From contig OY726565.1 of the NCBI GenBank assembly GCA_963383645.1, positions 34,204,529-34,268,528 of the forward strand: a DNA stretch of 64,000 bases, read 5' to 3'. Source of the stretch: Muscardinus avellanarius. Lineage: Eukaryota > Chordata > Mammalia > Rodentia > Gliridae. Below, piece after piece: positions 20,399 to 64,000 of this stretch. Position numbers and translations under genes: made by a program. A model generated the notes under the pieces. That model was not told the DNA's origin. It saw nothing but the letters and a program-made list of their open reading frames with translations, and searched no databases. The number at the start of each line of letters is the position of its first letter. Position 1 is the first letter of the stretch.

Positions 20399-20984
20399 AG
20401 CAAGAGAAATTCATTCAATCTGAAAAATATGTATGGAAAATTTACAACAAGCATGGTAATCAACAGTGAACCTTATAATCATTCTCAATATAACCACGGT
20501 TATTCAAAACTGGACTAAATGTTATATGCAGTATAACAAGAAATAAGAAAACAAAAGGAAAACTACAAAGACTGGAAAAAAGTAAATTATTATCATTCAG
20601 AGATAATATGATTGTCCACAAAATGGAAAACATAAAGAAATTCTGGCCAAATACTACTCATCACATAAACACTTAGAGAAAGTATACAATAAAACTGACA
20701 AAGGTTTAGCAAAGTTACCTATTACAAAATTAATATTCAAAGACCAGAGCCATTTTTGTAAACCAGCAACAAAAAGCTAGAAAATGAAATTTTAAAGACA
20801 TATTACCTACAAGGGAATAAAATACTTAGAAAGCAATTCTAAGAGAGACTATATAAAACTATATTTCTGTTTGTTAATTGGATGGTTTTTGTTTTCATTA
20901 TTTTGAGCTTATTTCGTAAAACAATCAAACAGAAACCTGGGCTGTCATTGGAGTTTCAGAAGAAAGAAGCTAAGTCCTTTTTTT

Positions 20985-22049
20985 TCCACTATTTATTTTT
21001 TTTAAATTGGTGCATTGTAATCATATATCACATTGGAATACAAGACTTGAGAGGATATACAAGCACACATTATCCAATTAGCCCTCATCCAGCCCCCATC
21101 CCATTCCCTCCCCCTCCCTCGATCCCATGTTTGTTCAGTGATTAACTTTGATACATTTGTTTATGTACCTCCTGCATTTGAAAGAGGCTCCATCCTCCCC
21201 TATTTCATACCCTCTGATTGGTCACTTTAGTTGCTTCACTATAGGGCCCTTTCTATAGCTCAACCTCTTCCTGTTGCCCCTTTCCTCCTAGTTTTTGCTG
21301 ATTAGGGGAAGCATCTGATTTTTATTTTCTGCGATATTTCTCTGTGCATGCCACGTTGCAAGTACCGATCCCACTCTTGATGGCCCCAGTAGTGCCCTGG
21401 CTACCCGGTGGACTGATCCAGACCTTGCTGGCCCCAGCACCGGCCTAACCCCTCAGCAGGCTCCGATCCCAGCTTTGGAGGCCCCAGCACCGGCCCTGCC
21501 TCACGGTGAGCTCCATTCCCAGCCTTGTTGGCCCTAGCACCGGCCTAACCCCTCGGCAGGCTCCGATCCCGGCCTCGGTGGCCCCAGCACCAGCCTTGCC
21601 TCACAGCAGGCTCTGATGACAGCCTCACTGGCCCCAGCCCCGGTCTAACTCCTTGGCAGGCTCTGATCCAGCCTCGGAGGCCTCAGTAGCGGTCTTGCCT
21701 CATGGAAGGCTCCAATGCCGGCTGCTGGTACTGGCACCAGCCTAACCCCTCGGCAGGCTCCGAATCCCGGCCTCAGAGGCCTCAGCACTGGCCTTGCCTC
21801 ACGGCAGCCTCCAATGCTGGCCATTGGCCCCAGCACCGGCCTAACCCCTCAGCAGTCTCTTATCCCGGCCTCGGAGGCCCCAGCACCAGCCTTGCCTCAC
21901 GGCAGGCTCCGATGCTGGCCGCTGGTCCCGGCATCAGCCTAACCCCTTGGCAGGCTCCGATCCCGGCCTCAGAGGCCTCAGCACCGGCCTTGCCTCACAG
22001 CAGGCTCTGATGCCAGCCTCACTGGCCCCAGCACCGGTCTAACCCCTTG
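20985..22049 (-). mobile_element. VNTR/L1-tail composite retroelement, copy 1
   Basis: In sense orientation (minus) this has a GC-rich VNTR (22049 down to about 21370), about 370 bp resembling an L1 3' UTR, including a purine-rich block and the terminal 'acaatgcaccaattt' shared with L1 ends elsewhere in the window, and an A-rich tail. No ORF2 lies between VNTR and tail. The 16-bp flanks gctaagtycttttttt at 20969-20984 and 22050-22065 differ at one base and are a target duplication. The sense 5' junction reads TTTT/AAAA, a good L1-endonuclease site. The element therefore moved as a unit and was 5'-truncated within the VNTR. Its family name is unknown to me; in design it resembles SVA or LAVA. 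Confidence 0.8.
21370..22049 (-). repeat. GC-rich VNTR, about 100-bp dimer units
   Basis: About seven copies of a roughly 100-bp unit made of two 50-bp halves. On plus the halves carry 'ccggcctaacccctcggcag' and 'ccggccttgcctcacggcag', alternating. The same repeat, in opposite orientation, is at 62899-64000. Confidence 0.95.
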
Positions 22050-22069
22050 GCTAAGTTCTTTTTTTAAAA

Positions 22070-22648: not shown

Positions 22649-25600
22649 TTTTTTTTTTTTTTTTTTTTTTTTTTTTATTTTTTTATTTTATTTTATTTTT
22701 TTAACAATTTTTTATTGAACATAAATAGTATACATTTACACTATATTTGGTGCCCTCTCCCCCCGCCCCCATTTTCTCCCCCCCCCCCCACCAATGGTTG
22801 GCCAGGTTAACCATGTCTTATTCATAATTTTACACATGTTCAGGTGAAGATGCTCCTTAATCAAGATCGGCCTTTCTCCTCTCCTATCTTTCCATTAAAA
22901 CTTAGCTAGTATTTCCCCTCTAATATCTGGGGTCCTACTGGTATCCTTTGTGTTTTCTAGTTTGGGCATATTAGAGGAAACATGTGTATCTTCTCCTTCT
23001 GTGCTTGGCTGATCTCACTTAACATGATGCTTTCCAGGGCTTTCCATCTTCTTGCAAATGATAAAATTTTGTTCTTCTTTATGGCTGAATAGAATTCCAT
23101 TGTGTGTATTTCCCACAGTTTTGCTATCCATTCATCTGTTGATGGTGATCTGGGTTGGATCCATATTTTGGCTATTACAAATTGTGCTGCTATGAACATA
23201 GGTATGCATATGTTGCTGTATTTCTCTGAATTCAACCCTTTTGGAAAGATACCCAGGAGTGGTATAGCTGGATCATATGGTGGATCTATTCCCACCTTTC
23301 TTAGGAATCTCCACACAGATCTCCATAGTGGCTGAACTAGTTTGCACTCCCACCAACAGTGTAAAAGAGTTCCTCTTTCCCCACATCCTCGCCAGCATTT
23401 GTTGTTGTTTGATTTCTTTATGCTTGCTACTCTCACTGGGGTTAGATGGAATCTCAGTGTAGTTTTGATTTGCATCTCCCTGATGGCCAGTGATGAAGAA
23501 CATCTTTTCATGTATCTATTAGCCCTTTGTATCTCTTCTTTTGTGAAGTGTCTATTTAGTTCATTTGCCCATTTCTTGATTGGGTTGTTTGTTTTGTTGG
23601 TGTAGAGCCTTTTGAGCTCTTTGTATACTCTGGATATTAGCCCCCTATCAGAATGGTGGCTGGTAAAGATCCTTTCCCATTCTGTAGGCTTCCTCTTTAG
23701 GTTATTGATAGTTTCCTTTGATGAGAAGAAACTTTTTAGTTTAATGTTATCCCACTTGTTTATTCTTGCTTTAATTTCCTGAGCTTTGGAGGTTTTGTTG
23801 AGAAAGTTACTGCCTGTGCCAATATGTTGTAGTGTTGAACCTATGTTCTCCTCTACTAACTTCACCGTCTCAGGTCTAATTTCTAAGTCTTTGATCCATC
23901 TTGAGTTGATTCCTGTGTTAGGTGAGATATAGGGGTTTAGCTTCATCTTTTTACAAATGGCTAGCCAGTTCTCCCAGCACCACTTGTTGAAAAGGCTGTC
24001 TTTTCTCCAGCGTATGTGTTTGGCCCCTTTGTCAAAGATTAATTGACTAAAGATGTGTGGGTTTGTTTCTGTATCTTCTATTCTAATCCACTGGTCAGTA
24101 TGTCTGTTTTTGTGCCAGTACCATGCTGTTTTTACTACTATTGCTCTATAGTATAGTTTGAAGTCTGGGATTGTAATGCCTCCTGCGTGTTTCTTGTTAT
24201 TGAGAATTGCTTTGGCTATTCTAGGTCTTTTCTTTCTCCATATGAAGTTCATGATTGATTTTTCTAGGTCTCTGAAGAATGTCACTGGTATTTTAATGGG
24301 AATTGCATTGAACCTATAGATCAGTTTTGGCAGAATGGCCATTTTGATGATATTTATTCTGCCTATCCATGAGCACGGGAGATCTTTCCATCTTCCAAGG
24401 TCTTCTTCTATTTCTTTTTTTAATGTTTTATAGTTTTTGTTGTAGAGGTCTTTTACATCTTGGGTTAGGTTTATTCCTAGGTATTTTATTGGTTTTGAGG
24501 TTATAGTGAATGGAATTGTTGTTTTTGTTTCCTTCATTGTGGATTCGTTGTTGGCATAAAGAAAGGCCACTGATTTCTTTAGGTTGATTTTGTAACCTGC
24601 GACTTTGCCGAATTTGTCGATCAGCTCCAGAAGTCTTTTGGTTGAGTTCTTTGGGTCTTCCAGGTAAAGGATCATGTCATCTGCGAATAAGGATAATTTC
24701 ACTTCCTCTCTTCCTATGTGGATTCCTTTGATTTCCTTCTCTTGTCTGATTGCTGCAGCAAGAGTCTCAAGGACTATATTGAAAAGGAGAGGTGAAAGTG
24801 GGCATCCTTGTCTTGTTCCTGACTGTAGCGGAAATTCTTGCAGTTTTTCCCCATTCAATATAATGTTGGCTTTGGGTTTGCAGTATATTGCCTTGATGAT
24901 GTTGAAGTACTTTCCTTCTATCCCAATTTTTTGCAGTGTTTTTAACATAAATGGGTGTTGGATTTTGTCGAATGCTTTTTCAGCATCTATTGCTATGATG
25001 ATGTGGTTTTTGTTCTTGGTTCTATTTATGTGGTGAATAACATGTATTGATTTGCGTATGTTGAACCAGCCTTGTTTTTCTGGGATGAAACCGACTTGGT
25101 CGTGATGAATTATTCTCTTGATATAGTTTTGAATGCGTATAGCTAGTATTTTGTTTAGAATTTTTGCATCTATGTTCATTAAGGATATTGGTCTGTAGTT
25201 TTCCTTTCTTGAGGTATCTTTATTTGGTTTGGGGATTAATGTGATACTGGCCTCATAGAAGGAATTTGGAAGAGTTCCATCTCTTTCAATTTCCCGGAAC
25301 GTGTTATGAAGTATTGGTATTAGTTGTTCACTGAAGGTTTTGTAGAATTCAGCTGGGAACCCATCTGGGCCTGGGCTTTTCTTTGGTGGAAGAATTTTTA
25401 TTGCCGTTTCTATTTCTTTGGTTGTTATTGGTTGGTTTAGGCTTGCTATGTCCTCTTGGTTGAGTGTAGGAAGGTTAACTGTGTTTAGAAATCTGTCAAT
25501 TTCATCCAGGTTTTCAAATCTATTGGAGTATAAATTTTTAAAGTAGTTTCTGATAATGTTTTGAATTTCTTCACTATCAGTGGTGATATCTCCTTTTTCA

Positions 25601-26607
25601 TTTCTAATTTTGGTAATTTGAGTTGATTCTCTTTTTCTTTTGGTTAGGTTGGCCAGGGGTTTATCAATTCTATTAATCTTTTCAAAGAACCAACTTTTTG
25701 TTTTATTGATTCTTTGAATTGTTTTTTTGTTCTCTATTTCATTTATTTCTGCTCTAATTTTGATGATTTCTCGTCTTCTGCTGGCTTTGGGAATGGATTG
25801 TTGCAGAATTTCTAGATCCTTGAGTTGTTTCATTAGGTTCTTTACTTGGTGGTTCTCCATCCTTTTTATGTGGGCACTCAATGCGATAAACTTTCCTCTT
25901 AGTACTGCCTTCATGGTGTCCCATAGGTTTTGGTGGGTTGTGTCTCTGTTTTCGTTTGTTTCCATAAATTTCTTTATTTCTTCCCTAATTTCTGCTCTTA
26001 CCCATTCGTCATTTAGTAGTGTATCATTCATTCTCCATGAATTTGAATACTTTCTTTCGATTTTCCTGTTGTTGATTTCTACTTTTATTCCATTGTGGTC
26101 TGAAAAGATGCATGGGATTATATTACATTTTTTGAATTTGCTGGTATTTTCTTTGTGTCCCAGGATGTGATCTATTTTGGAGAAGGTTCCATGGGCTGCT
26201 GAGAAGAAAGTGTATTCTGTAGTTCCTGGTTGAAATACTCTGAAAACGTCTATTAGGTCCATTTGGTTTATGGTTTCCTTTAGTTCTAGAGCATCTTTAC
26301 TCATCTTTTGCCTCGAAGATCGATCCAGTGGTGTGAGAGGCGTATTAAAGTCTCCCAGAATTATTGTATTTGGGTCTACTTGGGATCTTATGTCCAGAAG
26401 GGTTTGTTTTACGAATGTGGTTGCACCCACATTTGGGGCATAAATATTTACTATCATTATATCTTCTTGGTGTATTGTTCCTTTTAATAAAAGGAAGTGC
26501 CCTGATTTGTCTCTTTTGATGTGTTTTATTTTAAAGTCTGTTTTGTTGGATATCAGGGTTGCTACCCCTGCTCTTTTTCGGTCACTGGTGGCATGGTATA
26601 TCTTTTT
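22649..26607 (-). mobile_element. Young 5'-truncated L1
   Basis: A 4-kb L1 inserted on the minus strand: T-rich stretch at 22649-22700 (its A tail, with AAAAT repeats), 3' UTR with a G11-type run seen as C11 near 22780, then ORF2 open to the 5' break at about 26607. A perfect 19-bp duplication, ccaaagtttatttaattta, lies at 22630-22648 and 26608-26626. The 5' UTR, ORF1 and the first roughly 60 ORF2 codons are missing. Perfect TSDs plus a clean frame make this the youngest large insertion here. Confidence 0.97.
22957..26457 (-). CDS. L1 ORF2 protein, N-terminally truncated
   Basis: Reverse transcriptase/endonuclease of a LINE-1. The full protein nicks target DNA and copies RNA at the nick. The first Met gives 1166 residues against about 1275 for a full ORF2p, but the frame stays open upstream to the 5' break (about 1216 codons). 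Visible parts: the endonuclease remainder with [15 protein letters not shown] and FSDHNGIK (matching the D145/N147, D205 and H230 regions of human EN), but without the N-terminal Asn and Glu catalytic residues; the RT domain with [22 protein letters not shown] and the catalytic FADD near residue 600; and a C-terminal Cys motif [18 protein letters not shown]. No promoter or ORF1 remains, so it is probably not mobile. Translation from the internal Met is unproven. Confidence 0.9.
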
Positions 26608-45539: not shown

Positions 45540-46900
45540 TTTTTTTCTTTCTCATTAAACTTTTGTTTTAATGGGTCTCAAAGTGTTTCTATTAAAAAGT
45601 ACTGATTTTAAAAACTAATAACTTAAAACTGCCACACACACACACACACACACAAACAAATGGTCCACAAAACATTTTCCTTTCCTTCTCAAGGTTTTAC
45701 GATGCATTGTTATCATTAACCAGTCTTTTACTATTAAACTTAAATGGCCAATTGAGACAAACAGTTCTGAGACCGTTCTTCCACCACTGATTAAGACTGG
45801 AGTGGCAGGTGTTAGGGGTAATATTCATTTAGCCTTCTGAGCTTTCTGGGCAGACTTGGTGACCTTGCCAGCTCCAGCAGCCTTCTTGTCCACTGCTTTG
45901 ATGACGCCCACAGCAACTGTCTCATATCACTGTCTGTCTCATATCACGAACAGCAAAACGACTCAGAGGAGGATAGTCGGAGAAGCTCTCAACACACATA
46001 GGCTTGCCTGGAACCATATCAACAATGGCAGCATCGCCGGACTTCAAGAATTTAGGGCCATCTTCCAGCTTCTTACCAGAACGGCGGTCAATCTTCTCTT
46101 TCAGCTCAGCAAACTTGCAAGCAATGTGAGCTGTGTGACAATCCAGTACAGGAGCATAGCCAGCACTGATTTGGCCTGGATGGTTCAGGATGATCACCTG
46201 AGCAGTGAAACCAGCTGCTTCCATTGGTGGGTCATTTTTGCTGTCACCGGCCACATTGCCAGGACGAACATCTTTCACAGACACGTTCTTGACATTGAAG
46301 CCCACATTGTCTCCAGGAAGAGCTTCACTCAGAGCTTCATGGTGCATTTCAACAGACTTCACTTCAGTTGTGACATTGACTGGAGCAAAAGTGACCACCA
46401 TGCCAGGCTTGAGAACACCAGTCTCCACTCTGCCCACAGGGACAGTACCAATACCTCCAATTTTGTAGACATCCTGTAGGGGCAGCTGCAGAGGCTTGTC
46501 AGTTGGGCGAGTTAGTGGCAGGATGCAATCCAAAGCTTCAAGCAGTGTGGTTCCATTTGCGCTGCCATCTTTACGGGTGACTTTCCATCCTTTGAACCAG
46601 AGCATGTTAGCACTTGGCTCCAGCATGTTGTCACCATTCCAATCAGAAATTGGCACAAATGCTACTATATCAGGGTTGTAGCCAATTTTCTTAATGTAGG
46701 TGCTGACCTCCTTAACGATTTCCTCGTATCTCTTCTGGCTGTAAGGTGGCTCAGTGGAATCCATTTTGTTAACACCAACAATCAGTTGTTTCACACCCAG
46801 TGTGTAAGCCAGAAGGGCATGCTCACGGGTCTGTCCATTCTTGGAGATACCAGCTTCAAATTCACCAACACCAGCAGCAACAATCAAGACAGCACAGTCA

Positions 46901-53099: not shown

Positions 53100-56000
53100 T
53101 AAATCTCAATACAATAATATTGGGAGACTTCAACACCCCCTCTCACACCACTAGACCGATCTTCTAGACAAAAGGTCAGTAAAGATGCCTCAGAACTAAA
53201 GAACACCATTAAACAAATGGACTTGTTGGACACATATAGAATATTTCATCCAACTACAGCGGAGTTCACATTTTTCTCAGCTGCTCATGGAACCTTCTCC
53301 AAAATAGATCATATCCTGGACCACAAAGTGAGCACTAGCAAATTCAAAAAATGTTACATACTTCCCTGTGTCTTTTCAGATGATAATGGAATGAAATTAG
53401 AAATCAACTATAAGAAGACACAGAAAAACCACATAAACATGGGGAGACTTAACACCACAGTTCTGAATGAAGAATGGGTCATAGAAGATGCAAGAGGTGA
53501 AATCAAGAAATTTATAGAAGCAAATAAAAATAAATACACAACATATCAAAACTTCTGGGACACTTTAAAGGCAGCATTAAGAGGAAAATTTATGGCACTT
53601 AGTGCTCACATAACAAAAACAGAAAATCGCCAAATAAATAACCTAATGACACACCTCAAAGCCCTTGAAGAACAGGAACAATCTAATCTAGAAGACAGGA
53701 AATTATTAAAATCAGAGCAAAAATTAAAGAAGTAGAGAATAAAAAATACAGAAAATCAACAAAACAAAAAGCTGTTTTTTGAAAAAATTAACAAGATTGA
53801 AAAATCACTAGCCAAGCTAACTAAACAAGAGAGAAAATCAACCCAAATTATGAAGATAAGAGATGAAAAGGGAGATATTACTACTGACAGTGTAGAAATC
53901 CAGAGGATTATCAGAAACTACTTTGAAAAATGACACTCCAACAAAATGGAAAATCTGGAGGAAATTGACAACTTTCTAGATAAATACAACCTTCCTAAAC
54001 TGAGTCAAGATATATGGAAAATTTAAACCAACCAATAACAATCAAAGAGATTGAAACAGCAATAAAGAGCCTACCATCAAAAAAAAAAAAAAAAAGCCTA
54101 GGACCAGTTGGCTTCCCAAGAGAATTCTATAAAACCTTTATAGAAGAGATAATACCAATACTCCTCAATAGATTTCATGAAATAGAAAAAACAGGACTCT
54201 CCCAAATAATGTGATGAATCCAACATCACATTAATACCCAAAACAAAGACAGTTTAAGGAAGGAAAACTACAGGCCTATACCTTTGATGAATTTGGATGC
54301 AAAACTGCTAAACAAAATACTAGCAACACGTACTCAAAAACACATAAAGAAAAATCATACATCATGACCAAGTAGGGTTCATCCCAGGGATGCAAAGCTG
54401 GTTCAACATATGAAAATCAATCCATGTAATACACCATATAAACAGAATCAAAGACAAAAATCACATGATCATTTCAATAGATGCTGAAACAGCATTTGAT
54501 AAAATCCAACATCCATTTATGATAAAAGCACTGCAGAGAACTGGAATCAAAGGAACATATCTCAACATCATAAAGGCAATCTATAATAATCCCACAGCCA
54601 ACATCATACTAAATGGGGGGAAACTTCAAAAATTCCCCCTAAAAACAGGAACAAGACAAGGATGCCCATTATCATCACTTCTCTTCAATATAGTACTTAA
54701 GACTCTAGCCAGAGCAATAAGGCAAGAAAAGAAAATCAAAGGAGTACAAATAGGGAATGAAGAACCTAAACTTTCACTATTTGTAGATGACATGATACTG
54801 TATTTAGAAAACCTAACAAACTCAACCAAAAGGCTTATAGAACTGATCAACAAATTCAGCAAAGTGTCTGGATATGAAATCAATCTTAAAATATCAGAAA
54901 CTTTTCCCCACACCAACCATAAACCCACTGAAAAAGAAATTCAGAAAACACTTCCACTAAGGATTGCCCACAAAAAAATAAAATACTTAGGAATAAACTT
55001 AACCAAGGAGGTAAAAGATCTCTACAAAGAAAATTATAAAAATTGAAAAAAGAAACTGAAGAAGATCTTAGAAGATGGAAAGATCTTCCATGTTCATGGA
55101 TTGGCAGAATGAATATCATTAAAATGGCCATCCTTCCAAAAGTGATCTACAGATTCAACACAATGCCCATTAAGTTACCAAGATCATTCCTCACAGACAT
55201 AGAAAAATCAGTCCTTAAATTTATTTGGAATAACAAAATACCCAGAATAGCCAAAGTAGTTCTCAGCAATAAAACCATGAAGGAGGAATCACAATACCTG
55301 ACTTTAAACTATACTACAAAGCCATTATAATAAAAACAGCATGGTACTGGCACAAAAAACAGATACATTGACCAATGGAGCAGAACAGAAGACCCAGAAA
55401 CAAGTCCACACACTTTCTGCCAATTGATTTTTGACAAAGGGGCCGAAAACATACACTGGAAAAAAGATAGCCTGTTCAATAAATGGTGTTGGCAAACCTG
55501 ATTAACCATATGCAGAAAATTGGAAATTAATCCTACCTTCTCACCTTGCACAAGAATCAATTCAAGATGGATCAAAGACTTGGAAATTAGACCAGAGACT
55601 TTGAGGCTCCTTGAAGAGGGAATAGGTCCAACACTGCAACACATAGGCACAGATAAAAACTATCTCAAAAATACCCAAAGGCATAACAAACTAAAAGGTG
55701 AATCCATGGGATTCCATGAAACTGAAGAGCTTCTGTTCAGCAAAGGAAACTGTCAAGAACCTCAATTGACAGCCAACAGAATGGGAGTTTTTTGCCACCT
55801 ACTCCTCTGATAGAAGACTAATATCTACAATATACAGAGAACTCAAGAATCTCAGCACTAAAAAAATAATAATAATCCAATCAAAAAATGGCCAAGTGCC
55901 GGGCGTGGTAGCACACGCTTGTAATCCCCGCGCTTGGGAGGCGGAGACAGGAGGATCACGCAGGTTCGAAGCCAGCCTTGCTGGCTTAAAAGCCCCTGTT

Positions 56001-56605
56001 TCCAAATTAAAAAAATATAAAAATAGGTCTGGGAGTGTAGCCCGGAGGTAGAAGGGCTTCCAGGAACCCCAGAACCACCAAGAAAAAAAAATTCAAATGG
56101 CCAAAAACGCATGAAAAAACATTCAACATCACTGGCAATCAGAGAGATGCACATCAAAATTACCCTGAGATTTCACCTTACCCCAACTAGAATGGCAACC
56201 ATTCAAAACACAAACAACAACAAATACTGGTGAGAATGTGGAGAAGTGGTAACTCTAAAACATTGTTGGTGGGATTGCAAATTAGTGCAAGCACTTTGGA
56301 AAACAGTATGGAGAATTCTCAGAAGAATGGGAACAAATCTACCATTCGATACAGCAATACCACTTCTGGGTATCTACCCAAAAGAAAAGAAACCAAACTA
56401 CCAAAGGAATGCATGTGTATCTGTGTTTATAGCTGCACAATTCACCATAGCCAAACTATGGAACCAGCCAAGATGTTCAGCAACAGATGAATGGATTACA
56501 AAACTGTGGAATATGTACACAATGGAATTTTACTCAGCCATTAAAAACAAAACACAATTACAGCATTTACAGGGAAATGGATGGAACTGGAGGACATTAT
56601 GCTAA
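53100..56605 (+). pseudogene. L1 ORF2 remnant, frame-broken
   Basis: ORF2 without the first roughly 130 residues. In order: '[10 protein letters not shown]' near 53110; '[15 protein letters not shown]' near 53268; '[10 protein letters not shown]' near 54650; '[13 protein letters not shown]' near 54771, where the RT signature FADD has become FVDD; '[17 protein letters not shown]' near 55091; a C-terminal 'GGIAN'-type Cys region near 56250; 'EFYSAIKNK' near 56527. Frames change at least at about 53735, 53990 and 55046, and an A16 run near 54080 has expanded. A SINE at 55897-56090 interrupts it. Catalytically dead and untranslatable as a whole. Confidence 0.88.
55897..56090 (+). mobile_element. 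Young-subfamily SINE inside the L1
   Basis: 'gccgggcgtggtagcacacg' to 'ccaggaaccccagaaccacc' plus A-rich tail. The flanks repeat 'aaatggccaa'. It postdates the L1. Confidence 0.93.
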
Positions 56606-57045
56606 GCGAGCTTAGTCAGTAGCAAAAGCTTAGAAATTGGATTCTTTCCCTAATATGTGAAAGCTAAGGTGAAATGGGTCAGAGGAGGAATTCCAGGTTA
56701 AAAAGGAGGTCCTATAGAGGAGCAAATAAGGCAACCTAAGTTCAGGGATTGGAGGGGGAGAAAAGGAAACTCTTTAAAGCTCAGGATGTACTTATTCATA
56801 TCGTAGTCAACCACTAAGCCAAGCATGAGAGAGAGGTATGAGGAGGGAGTGGGGTGGGAATTGGGTGGGGACTGGCTGGGTGATGTGTGTGCTTTTATGT
56901 CTACACAAGTTTTTTCCCCATTTTTATGTATAAATACAATGCACCAATAAAAATTTAAAAAACAAACAAACTCTTATATAAAGAGAACTTAGAAGCTAAT
57001 GTTTTTATTAGCAAGTTAAGACTGTTTTTTTTCTGTAGGCATTTT

Positions 57046-62070: not shown

Positions 62071-62190
62071 ATGCTGGGCCTGGTGGTGCACACTTGTAAT
62101 CCCAGTACTTGGGAGGCTGAGATAAAGAGGATTACAGGTTCAAGACCAGCCTTGGCAATTTAGTGACACTCTGAAACCAAAAAATAAAAT
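62071..62190 (+). mobile_element. B1 half of a dimeric SINE, joined to the GC-rich composite
   Basis: 'gctgggcctggtggtgcaca' to 'ctctgaaaccaaaaaataaaa'. The expected ID half is missing. At the end of the linker ('aaaataaaatagg') the sequence becomes GC-rich composite DNA. Confidence 0.85.
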
Positions 62191-62198
62191 AGGGGGAA

Positions 62199-62398
62199 CC
62201 GGGTCGCAGGACCCTGGGCCCCAGGCCGAACTGCGCGTAGCATGCCAGACCCCTGGAGAAACCGGGCCCAGTAAGATGCTGGGTTCTGGGCGGGGGTCAC
62301 GCATGGGGCACGCCAGCTGGGGCCCGGGTCGCGGGACTCTGGGCCCCGGCCGAACTGCGAGTAGCACGCCAGATCCCTGGAGAAACCGGGCCCAGAAC
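62199..62398 (+). repeat. GC-rich 125-bp tandem monomers (about 1.6 copies)
   Basis: Both copies share 'ccgggtcgc', 'ctgggcccc', 'gccgaactgcg', 'agtagcacgccag' (first copy 'cgtagcatgccag') and 'ccctggagaaaccgggccca'. High CpG content and the 5' position suggest promoter monomers. Confidence 0.85.
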
Positions 62399-62898
62399 AG
62401 AAAAAGATAAAGAAAAATATTGGAGAGGAGGTAAGAAAGCCGTTATGGATGCCAGGACACTGGAGATGCAGACAAAACTTATCTAAATGCACTGGAACTT
62501 ATGGAAAAATTCGCCGTGAAAGAGGACTGCTATTTGTCTATATTGTTAAGAATCTCAGACATCACCTGTAAGGAGAGAGTTTAGCGGAGACCAAGGAGAA
62601 ATGCGGTGTTGAAAGAGTTATCCGCGATGGTGGTGGAGACTTGTATTCAGGAGAAGCAGAAACCAGATCTTACCAACTTAATTTTTTTGGAGAAATTACA
62701 CCAAATGTCGAATGCTACCATAATGCATGCTTAGGAACACTGGACAACATTCAGAGTGGAAAAAGAGCCTGGGAAGGATTTGAAACGGTGGAGGCAGTGG
62801 CAATGCCAGTGGCCAATACTCAGGGGAGGCAGAGATCTGATACATTACACCTGGAACCTTTGAAATAATAACCACAGAGACAGTGATCAGAACCTGCT

Positions 62899-64000
62899 GA
62901 GGGGTTAGGCAGGTGCCGGGGCCAGTGGCCGACATCGGAGCTTGCTGTGAGGCAAGGCCACTACTGAGGCCTCCGTGGCTGGGATTGGAACCTGCCGAGG
63001 GGTTAGACCGATGCTGGGGCCAGCGAGGCCGGCATTGGAGCCTGCCATGAGGCAAGGCTTGTGCTGGGGCCTCCGAGGTCGGGTCCGGAACCTGCTGAGG
63101 GGTTAGGCCGGTGCTGGGGCCAGCGAGGCCGGCATCGGAGCCTGCCTTGAGGCAAGGCTGGTACTGGGGCCTCCGAGGCCAGGATAATAGCCTGCCGAGG
63201 GGTTAGGCCAGTGCTGGGGCCAGTGAGGCGGGCATCGGAGCCTGCCATGAGACAAGGCCGGTGCTGGGGCCTCCGAGGCTGGGATAAGAGCCTGCCGAGG
63301 GTTAGGCCGGTGCTGGGGCCTCCGAGGCCAGGATAAGAGCCTGCCGAGGGGTTAGGCCGGTGCTGGGGCCAGCGAGGCCGGCATCGGAGCCTGCCATGAG
63401 GCATTACCAGTGCTGGGGCCTCCAAGGATGGGATCGGAGCCTGCCGAGGGGTTAGGCCGGTGTTGGGGCCAGCGAGGCTGGCATCGGAGCCTGCCTTGAG
63501 GCAAGGCCGGTACTGGGGCCTCCGAGGCCAGGATAAGAGCCTGACGATGGGTTAGGCCGGTGTGGGGCCAGCGAGGCCAGCATCGAAGCCTGCCGTGAGG
63601 CAAGGCCAGTACTGGGGCCTCCGAGGCCAGGATAAGAGCCTGCCGAGGGGTTAGGCTGGTGCTGGGGGCAGCGAGGCTGGCATCGGAGCCTTCCATGAGG
63701 CATGACCAGTGCTAGGGCCTCCAAGGCTGGCATCGGAGCCTGCCTTGAGGCAAGGCCGGTACTGGGGCCTCCGAGGCCAGGATAAGAGCCTGCTGAGGGG
63801 TTAGGCCGATGCTGGGGCCAGCGAGGCCGGCATCGGAGCCTGCCATGAGGCAAGGCCGATACTGGGGCCTCCGAGGCCAGGATAAGAGCCTGCTGAGGGG
63901 TTAGGCCGGTGCTGGAGCCAGTGAGGTCAGCATCACAGCCTGCCGTGAGGCATGGCCGGTGCTTGGACCTCTGAGGCCAGTATCGGAGCTGGGCCGAGGG
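62899..64000 (+). repeat. GC-rich VNTR, alternating 50-bp half-units
   Basis: About 11 dimer units of 100 bp. Half A carries 'gaggggttaggccggtgctg' and 'ccagcgaggccggcatcgg'; half B carries 'gaggcaaggccggtactggg' and 'cctccgaggccaggata'. Halves alternate, except a chimeric A-head/B-tail half near 63296-63344. Long stop-free frames on the minus strand come from the repeat and are not genes. Confidence 0.95.

Follow-up and report, generated by a model that had tools for sequence, protein, structure and literature searches.

A family of non-autonomous composite retrotransposons with a central VNTR and a LINE-1-derived 3′ end in the hazel dormouse

Results

Anatomy of the element at the end of the window

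The window, the whole 64,000-bp stretch of hazel dormouse DNA analyzed here (C8:34204529-34268528), breaks off within a repetitive element on the plus strand whose parts follow the order GC-rich monomers, unique body, VNTR, and LINE-1 (L1)-type 3′ end. The GC-rich CpG monomers occupy 62191..62395 (205 bp, or ~1.6 units of ~125 bp), the unique body occupies 62396..62880 (485 bp), and the VNTR, in which 50-bp subunits A and B alternate, fills 62881..64000. TRF returned periods of 50 and 100 for this array, starting at 62885/62927 and ending at 63989, with a score of 1042 for the 100-bp unit. In the sequence past 64000 (locus L009, which is the window copy), the VNTR continues to window coordinate 65250 (L009:3379; 2370 bp in total) and is followed by a 3′ end of 441 bp that contains AATAAA and terminates at L009:3820 (window 65691). 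The 2.4-kb VNTR therefore leads into a LINE-1-type 3′ end with neither ORF1 nor ORF2 in its course, the succession of parts that a preliminary description of the window had proposed.

The first copy of a 12-bp target-site duplication (TSD), AAATAAAATAGG, lies within an older SINE at 62182..62193 (plus strand), just before the element, which places the start at 62191 correctly to within ~3 bp. Its partner is at window coordinate 65930, past the window end, and comes after a SINE that adjoins the 3′ end, so that the window copy's own tail and second TSD are split by this intervening SINE. The empty site is a continuous SINE, presumably of the B1-dID type: the joined flanks gave 92 matches in the window and the retrieved loci, 73 of which span the join, with identities of 67-71% among the 12 listed. 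A protein-coding remnant was considered as the source of the body and rejected, as none of the three frames read contains a long open frame and a 49-residue piece compared with PDB sequences gave a single non-significant match (E 0.087).

A second member of the family, copy 1, lies on the minus strand at 20985..22049 and is 5′-truncated at a point inside the VNTR. Its VNTR (21426-22049) passes straight into an L1-type 3′ end with an A-rich tail (20985-21425), and it is flanked by a 16-bp duplication (left, 20969..20984; right, 22050..22065) whose two copies differ by one mismatch. The 3′ ends of copy 1 and the window copy share 91% identity. The earlier reading of copy 1 as a VNTR running directly into an L1-type 3′ UTR with A-tail and TSDs, and no ORF2, was correct.

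Uniformity of the family in the copies examined

The genome searched comprises 2,497,143,478 bases in 104 contigs. The whole element, the body alone, and the 3′ end alone returned 12045, 2246, and 1381 first-look candidates, respectively, all unconfirmed as copies. All 40 of the whole-query places that were scored matched at E=0, so the element is not a chance assembly, and 20 of these (L009-L028) were retrieved with long 3′ flanks. In each of the 20, the VNTR is joined to the same 441-bp 3′ end, over which the other 19 match the window copy at 95.9-97.7% identity. Neither ORF1, ORF2, nor any other coding region lies between the VNTR and the 3′ end in any of these 20 copies, and the open reading frames of at least 200 residues are antisense to the element or outside it. 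Nineteen of the 20 have an A-rich stretch immediately after the 3′ end, a position taken by the SINE in the window copy. Body and VNTR were tabulated for 19 of the 20 copies, leaving out L020, whose retrieved stretch was cut inside the VNTR and lacks the body for that reason. All 19, which have both VNTR borders, carry the 50-bp A/B units, in arrays of 1238-5090 bp.

Since a whole-element query may favor copies with a VNTR, the body was also searched separately. All 40 scored places matched it over its full length at 98-100% identity, and in the 20 of these where the following 0.7 kb was read, the body leads straight into the VNTR, with neither ORF1 nor ORF2 after it; in one (L047), the array is interrupted by an apparent SINE. 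Body and VNTR are thus joined in every copy examined. The search with the 3′ end alone gave identities of at least 99% in 40 of 40 scored places, with the preceding VNTR shown for the window copy.

The monomer sequence measures 155 to 1019 bp in the 13 copies in which the 5′ end was seen, and its start falls at differing points of the monomer from copy to copy. Its period is 125 in the window copy and 124/125, or the doubled 249, in five longer arrays. In the seven copies measured, the monomers have a GC content of 0.70-0.72 and a CpG observed/expected ratio of 0.63-0.79, against 0.18-0.48 in the flanks, and the VNTR has a GC content of 0.67-0.70.

Hallmarks of insertion

TSDs of 12-17 bp abut the start of the element and recur after the 3′ end in 10 of the 13 copies with both ends seen; pairing the flanks of mismatched copies produced such a duplication in 1 of 156 trials. 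The test covered 13 of 19 copies, as L015-L018, L025, and L026 begin outside the retrieved DNA, and at its strict setting (12 bp) it skips words made mostly of one letter. The three copies it missed have duplications of 10 bp (L010), 9 bp (L021), and none (L023), for the last of which a looser search gave 18 bp. The first six bases of 11 duplications are 73% A, a figure given without a background control, and the two bases preceding the duplication are TC, CT, or TT in 10 of 11. An A-rich target start with such preceding bases is expected for the L1 endonuclease.

In several copies, extra sequence separates the 3′ end from the second duplication: 374 bp in L011, 274 bp in L024, and 181 bp in L019 and, with the looser words, 303 bp in L023 (18-bp word) and about 105 bp in L021 (9-bp word). 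These segments are as 3′ transduction would leave them, and insertions into the tail can give the same result. L024:3049-3713 holds two consecutive composite 3′ ends with only one 15-bp duplication after them, as would be seen had a fragment from downstream travelled with the element. L017, L023, and L026 have in common, past the 3′ end, an L1-like repeat of 200-285 bp (87-94% identical pairwise; starting 433 bp away in L017), which is either a shared 3′ transduction or merely a widespread repeat.

Subfamilies and age

In a tree built from body and 3′ end, 10 of 19 copies form one clade (support 100/99), and the window copy falls among the other nine. Within the clade, two pairs of copies have identical bodies (L015 and L018; L016 and L025). 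The VNTR measures 2840-5090 bp in the clade versus 1238-2870 bp in the other nine, ranges that touch, so that clade VNTRs are mostly the longer ones. The array begins with the unit order ABABABABB in all 10 clade copies and in two of the nine others (L009 and L013); the 3′ terminal units were compared by eye in three copies.

A search with copy 1 scored 40 places, of which eight were read, one of them copy 1 itself. Five of those read (L030, L032, L034, L035, and L036) have bodies 88-92% identical to that of the window copy and, by eye, an additional segment that separates body from VNTR and is absent from the window copy. Part of this segment matches the body from position 248 on in L034, L035, and L036 (63-66% identity); it may therefore be an old internal duplication that was later lost. 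L033 holds a further copy with a 3′ end 75% identical. From that copy, through those at 88-92%, to copies with identical bodies, the family ranges from old to nearly identical.

LINE-1 origin of the 3′ end

An old L1 in the window (~54014-56964) retains ORF2 matches up to 56664, and its 3′ UTR, directly after ORF2, matches the composite 3′ end at 65% identity over 342 bp. A second L1, at L059, encodes ORF2 residues 1153-1277 at 64% identity in its first 376 bp and matches the composite 3′ end at 70% over 337 bp (E 2e-46). L1 homology runs from about the end of ORF2 to the tail, and from these two matches we conclude, on sequence similarity, that the composite 3′ end derives from LINE-1, with the break near the last ORF2 codons. 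When the end of the window L1 ORF2 was joined to the composite 3′ end as one query, three of 40 scored places spanned both at 80-83% identity, one of them the window L1 and another L059. These are more distant L1s; the places scored and the loci retrieved yielded no L1 whose 3′ end closely resembles the composite one.

At L037, both L1 frames are open (ORF1, 329; ORF2, 1279), and the 3′ UTR is unrelated to the composite 3′ end. L038 is a 92% relative of L037 with a broken ORF2. Both have a 3′ end and, as far as the retrieved sequence reaches, a 5′ region other than those of the composite. With no close L1 3′ end found and the L037 3′ UTR unrelated, L1 is a putative present helper. All 150 scored places for L1 ORF1 (PF02994) lie above the Pfam cut-off, most with open frames of 329 aa, and L1 looks to have been recently active in the dormouse. 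Within the window, 22957-26457 on the minus strand, ~0.9 kb from copy 1, holds a 1166-aa frame of L1 ORF2; the ORF2 there is 96.6% identical to the L037 ORF2 over residues 61-1279. Another open frame, of 321 aa and starting with TTG, is located at 45922-46887, also on the minus strand.

Discussion

A family of composite elements and its proposed cycle

The hazel dormouse very probably (at roughly nine in ten, judged from sequence) has a family of non-autonomous composite non-LTR retrotransposons of about 2.3 to 6.7 kb. The family of monomers, body, VNTR, and L1 3′ end without ORFs that had been suggested from the window is present in the extended sequence and in the other copies, and the TSDs and the absence of ORF1 and ORF2 3′ of the VNTR agree with that suggestion. 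Of the traits of the VNTR composite class, the dormouse family displays a lack of protein-coding capacity, an A-rich tail, TSDs, and a central GC-rich tandem array between non-repetitive parts. The reading of this rodent element as a non-autonomous VNTR composite of the L1 type is well supported.

In the cycle that we propose, RNA polymerase II would initiate in the CpG-rich monomers, which by analogy with those of mouse L1 are a putative promoter, and the RNA would pass through the body and VNTR into the L1-derived 3′ end with its AATAAA. LINE-1 proteins would take up the polyadenylated RNA in trans, and insertion would proceed by target-primed reverse transcription at sites of the L1-endonuclease type. 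Mobilization in trans by L1 proteins, a further trait of the VNTR composite class, is suggested indirectly by the A-rich TSD starts and by the presence of an L1 with open frames. What the sequence itself displays is the anatomy, the TSDs with their A-rich starts, the A-rich tails, the L1 homology of the 3′ end, the lack of room for ORFs, transduction-like extra segments after some 3′ ends, and subfamilies with near-identical copies. An RNA intermediate and current activity are putative.

Alternative explanations

The family could instead be the deletion derivative of one extinct LINE-1, whose 5′ UTR would survive as monomers and body and whose 3′ UTR would survive as the 3′ end, with an expanding VNTR in place of the lost ORFs. 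We consider this a serious contender that falls somewhat short of even odds. The 5′ UTR of mouse L1 consists of a monomer promoter plus a tether, and the CpG-rich 5′ monomers, their varying start, and the non-repetitive segment after them resemble such murine L1 leaders; the L1-derived 3′ end fits as well. Against it, the body was followed by the VNTR in all 20 body-selected places retrieved, and no L1 with such a 5′ end was seen. L037 and L038, which reach ~2 kb ahead of ORF1 and whose 5′ ends may lie further out, match neither monomers nor body significantly (L037 matches the body once, at E 0.03, inside ORF2; L038 does not match it). Moreover, across the window and the loci (310 kb), the monomer and body matches listed (<87% identity, <400 bp) all fall in family members, a comparison that a decayed L1 source would escape. 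A deletion derivative would move in the same way and would differ from a fusion of unrelated parts in origin only, and it is therefore compatible with the reading of the family as composite retrotransposons.

It is very improbable that the family is an autonomous L1 with the VNTR in a long leader, the ORF-less copies being internal deletions, as the preliminary description had offered as its alternative for copy 1. Monomer leaders do occur in rodent L1, yet ORF1 and ORF2 follow the VNTR or body in none of the 20 long-flank and none of the 20 body-selected places, and all 20 long-flank copies share one junction to the L1 3′ end. Least credible of all is that satellite or minisatellite arrays were spread by DNA recombination and became chance neighbors of the other parts, for, while the VNTR taken alone is a tandem array, the four parts stand, in the copies examined, in fixed order with a defined 3′ end, A-rich tails, TSDs, and an empty site, which also disposes of the earlier notion of a satellite with no 3′ tail or TSDs.

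Novelty and significance

PMC7353768 describes SVA and LAVA as specific to hominoid primates, and two papers term VNTR composites hominoid-specific. Among the papers listed in a literature search whose scope excluded most subscription journals, Repbase, and Dfam, none describes such a rodent element in its title or the start of its abstract, in agreement with the preliminary description, and the passages of PMC13174262 consulted make no mention of the dormouse or Gliridae. The dormouse family may thus have arrived independently at the parasitic plan of the ape and human elements. On balance, we lean toward the broader view that VNTR composites arose independently outside hominoids, in an unrelated, still-mobile dormouse lineage. 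This lineage would be long-lived, its copies being nearly identical or, in one case, as much as 25% diverged, would number perhaps two thousand copies, and would have converged on the design of SVA, down to the expansion of an ordered VNTR in the youngest subfamily. If this is true, the GC-rich VNTR would be a recurrent adaptation to parasitizing L1 rather than a historical accident confined to apes. With a second case that does not have the Alu-like part in common, one could ask which recurring features may be needed, among them the GC-rich ordered VNTR, the repeated CpG-rich 5′ part, and the foreign 3′ end. The role of the VNTR in L1 trans-mobilization and host silencing could also be addressed outside primates, in a genome that has both near-identical copies and open L1 frames.

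Comparison with known elements

With the monomer-bearing LINE-1 of mouse, the dormouse family shares tandem CpG-rich 5′ monomers of varying start, an L1-type 3′ end, and TSDs; it differs in having a VNTR instead of ORF1 and ORF2, the two frames of an autonomous LINE-1, which are absent from the copies examined. Like HAL1 (half-L1), it is non-autonomous and has an L1-derived 3′ end. HAL1, however, encodes ORF1p only, according to the available part of PMC5753468, whereas monomers, body, VNTR, and 3′ end make up the whole dormouse element and leave no ORF1 over; in addition, the dormouse family has a VNTR, and its 5′ part had no counterpart in the L1s compared.

Like SVA (SINE-R/VNTR/Alu) of hominids and LAVA/PVA/FVA of gibbons, the dormouse family is non-coding, with a central GC-rich VNTR, an A-rich tail, and TSDs. 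PMC4432496 gives SVA units of 30-50 bp, comparable to the 50-bp dormouse units, and reports that both ends of the SVA unit arrays are conserved and that VNTRs are longer in younger subfamilies. The dormouse array similarly has a common unit order at its 5′ end with a variable length, and its younger subfamily has the longer VNTR. The 3′ part of LAVA includes a fragment derived from L1 (PMC4432496, Figure 1 legend), and the dormouse 3′ end is L1-derived too. Unlike SVA and LAVA, the dormouse family is hosted by a rodent, its 5′ part consists of ~125-bp monomers and not CT hexamers (TRF reported no hexamer array where the window copy begins), and it closes with an L1 3′ terminus and not with SINE-R or U1-AluSz-U2-L1ME. 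An Rfam scan of one copy, the window copy (L009:280-3900), found no 7SL/Alu-like part inside the element, the only 7SL match (L009:3823-3900) being the SINE after the 3′ end, and the element is therefore not a member of the SVA family. The term SVA-like, under which the element was first described, holds for its design and inferred mechanism and not for membership.
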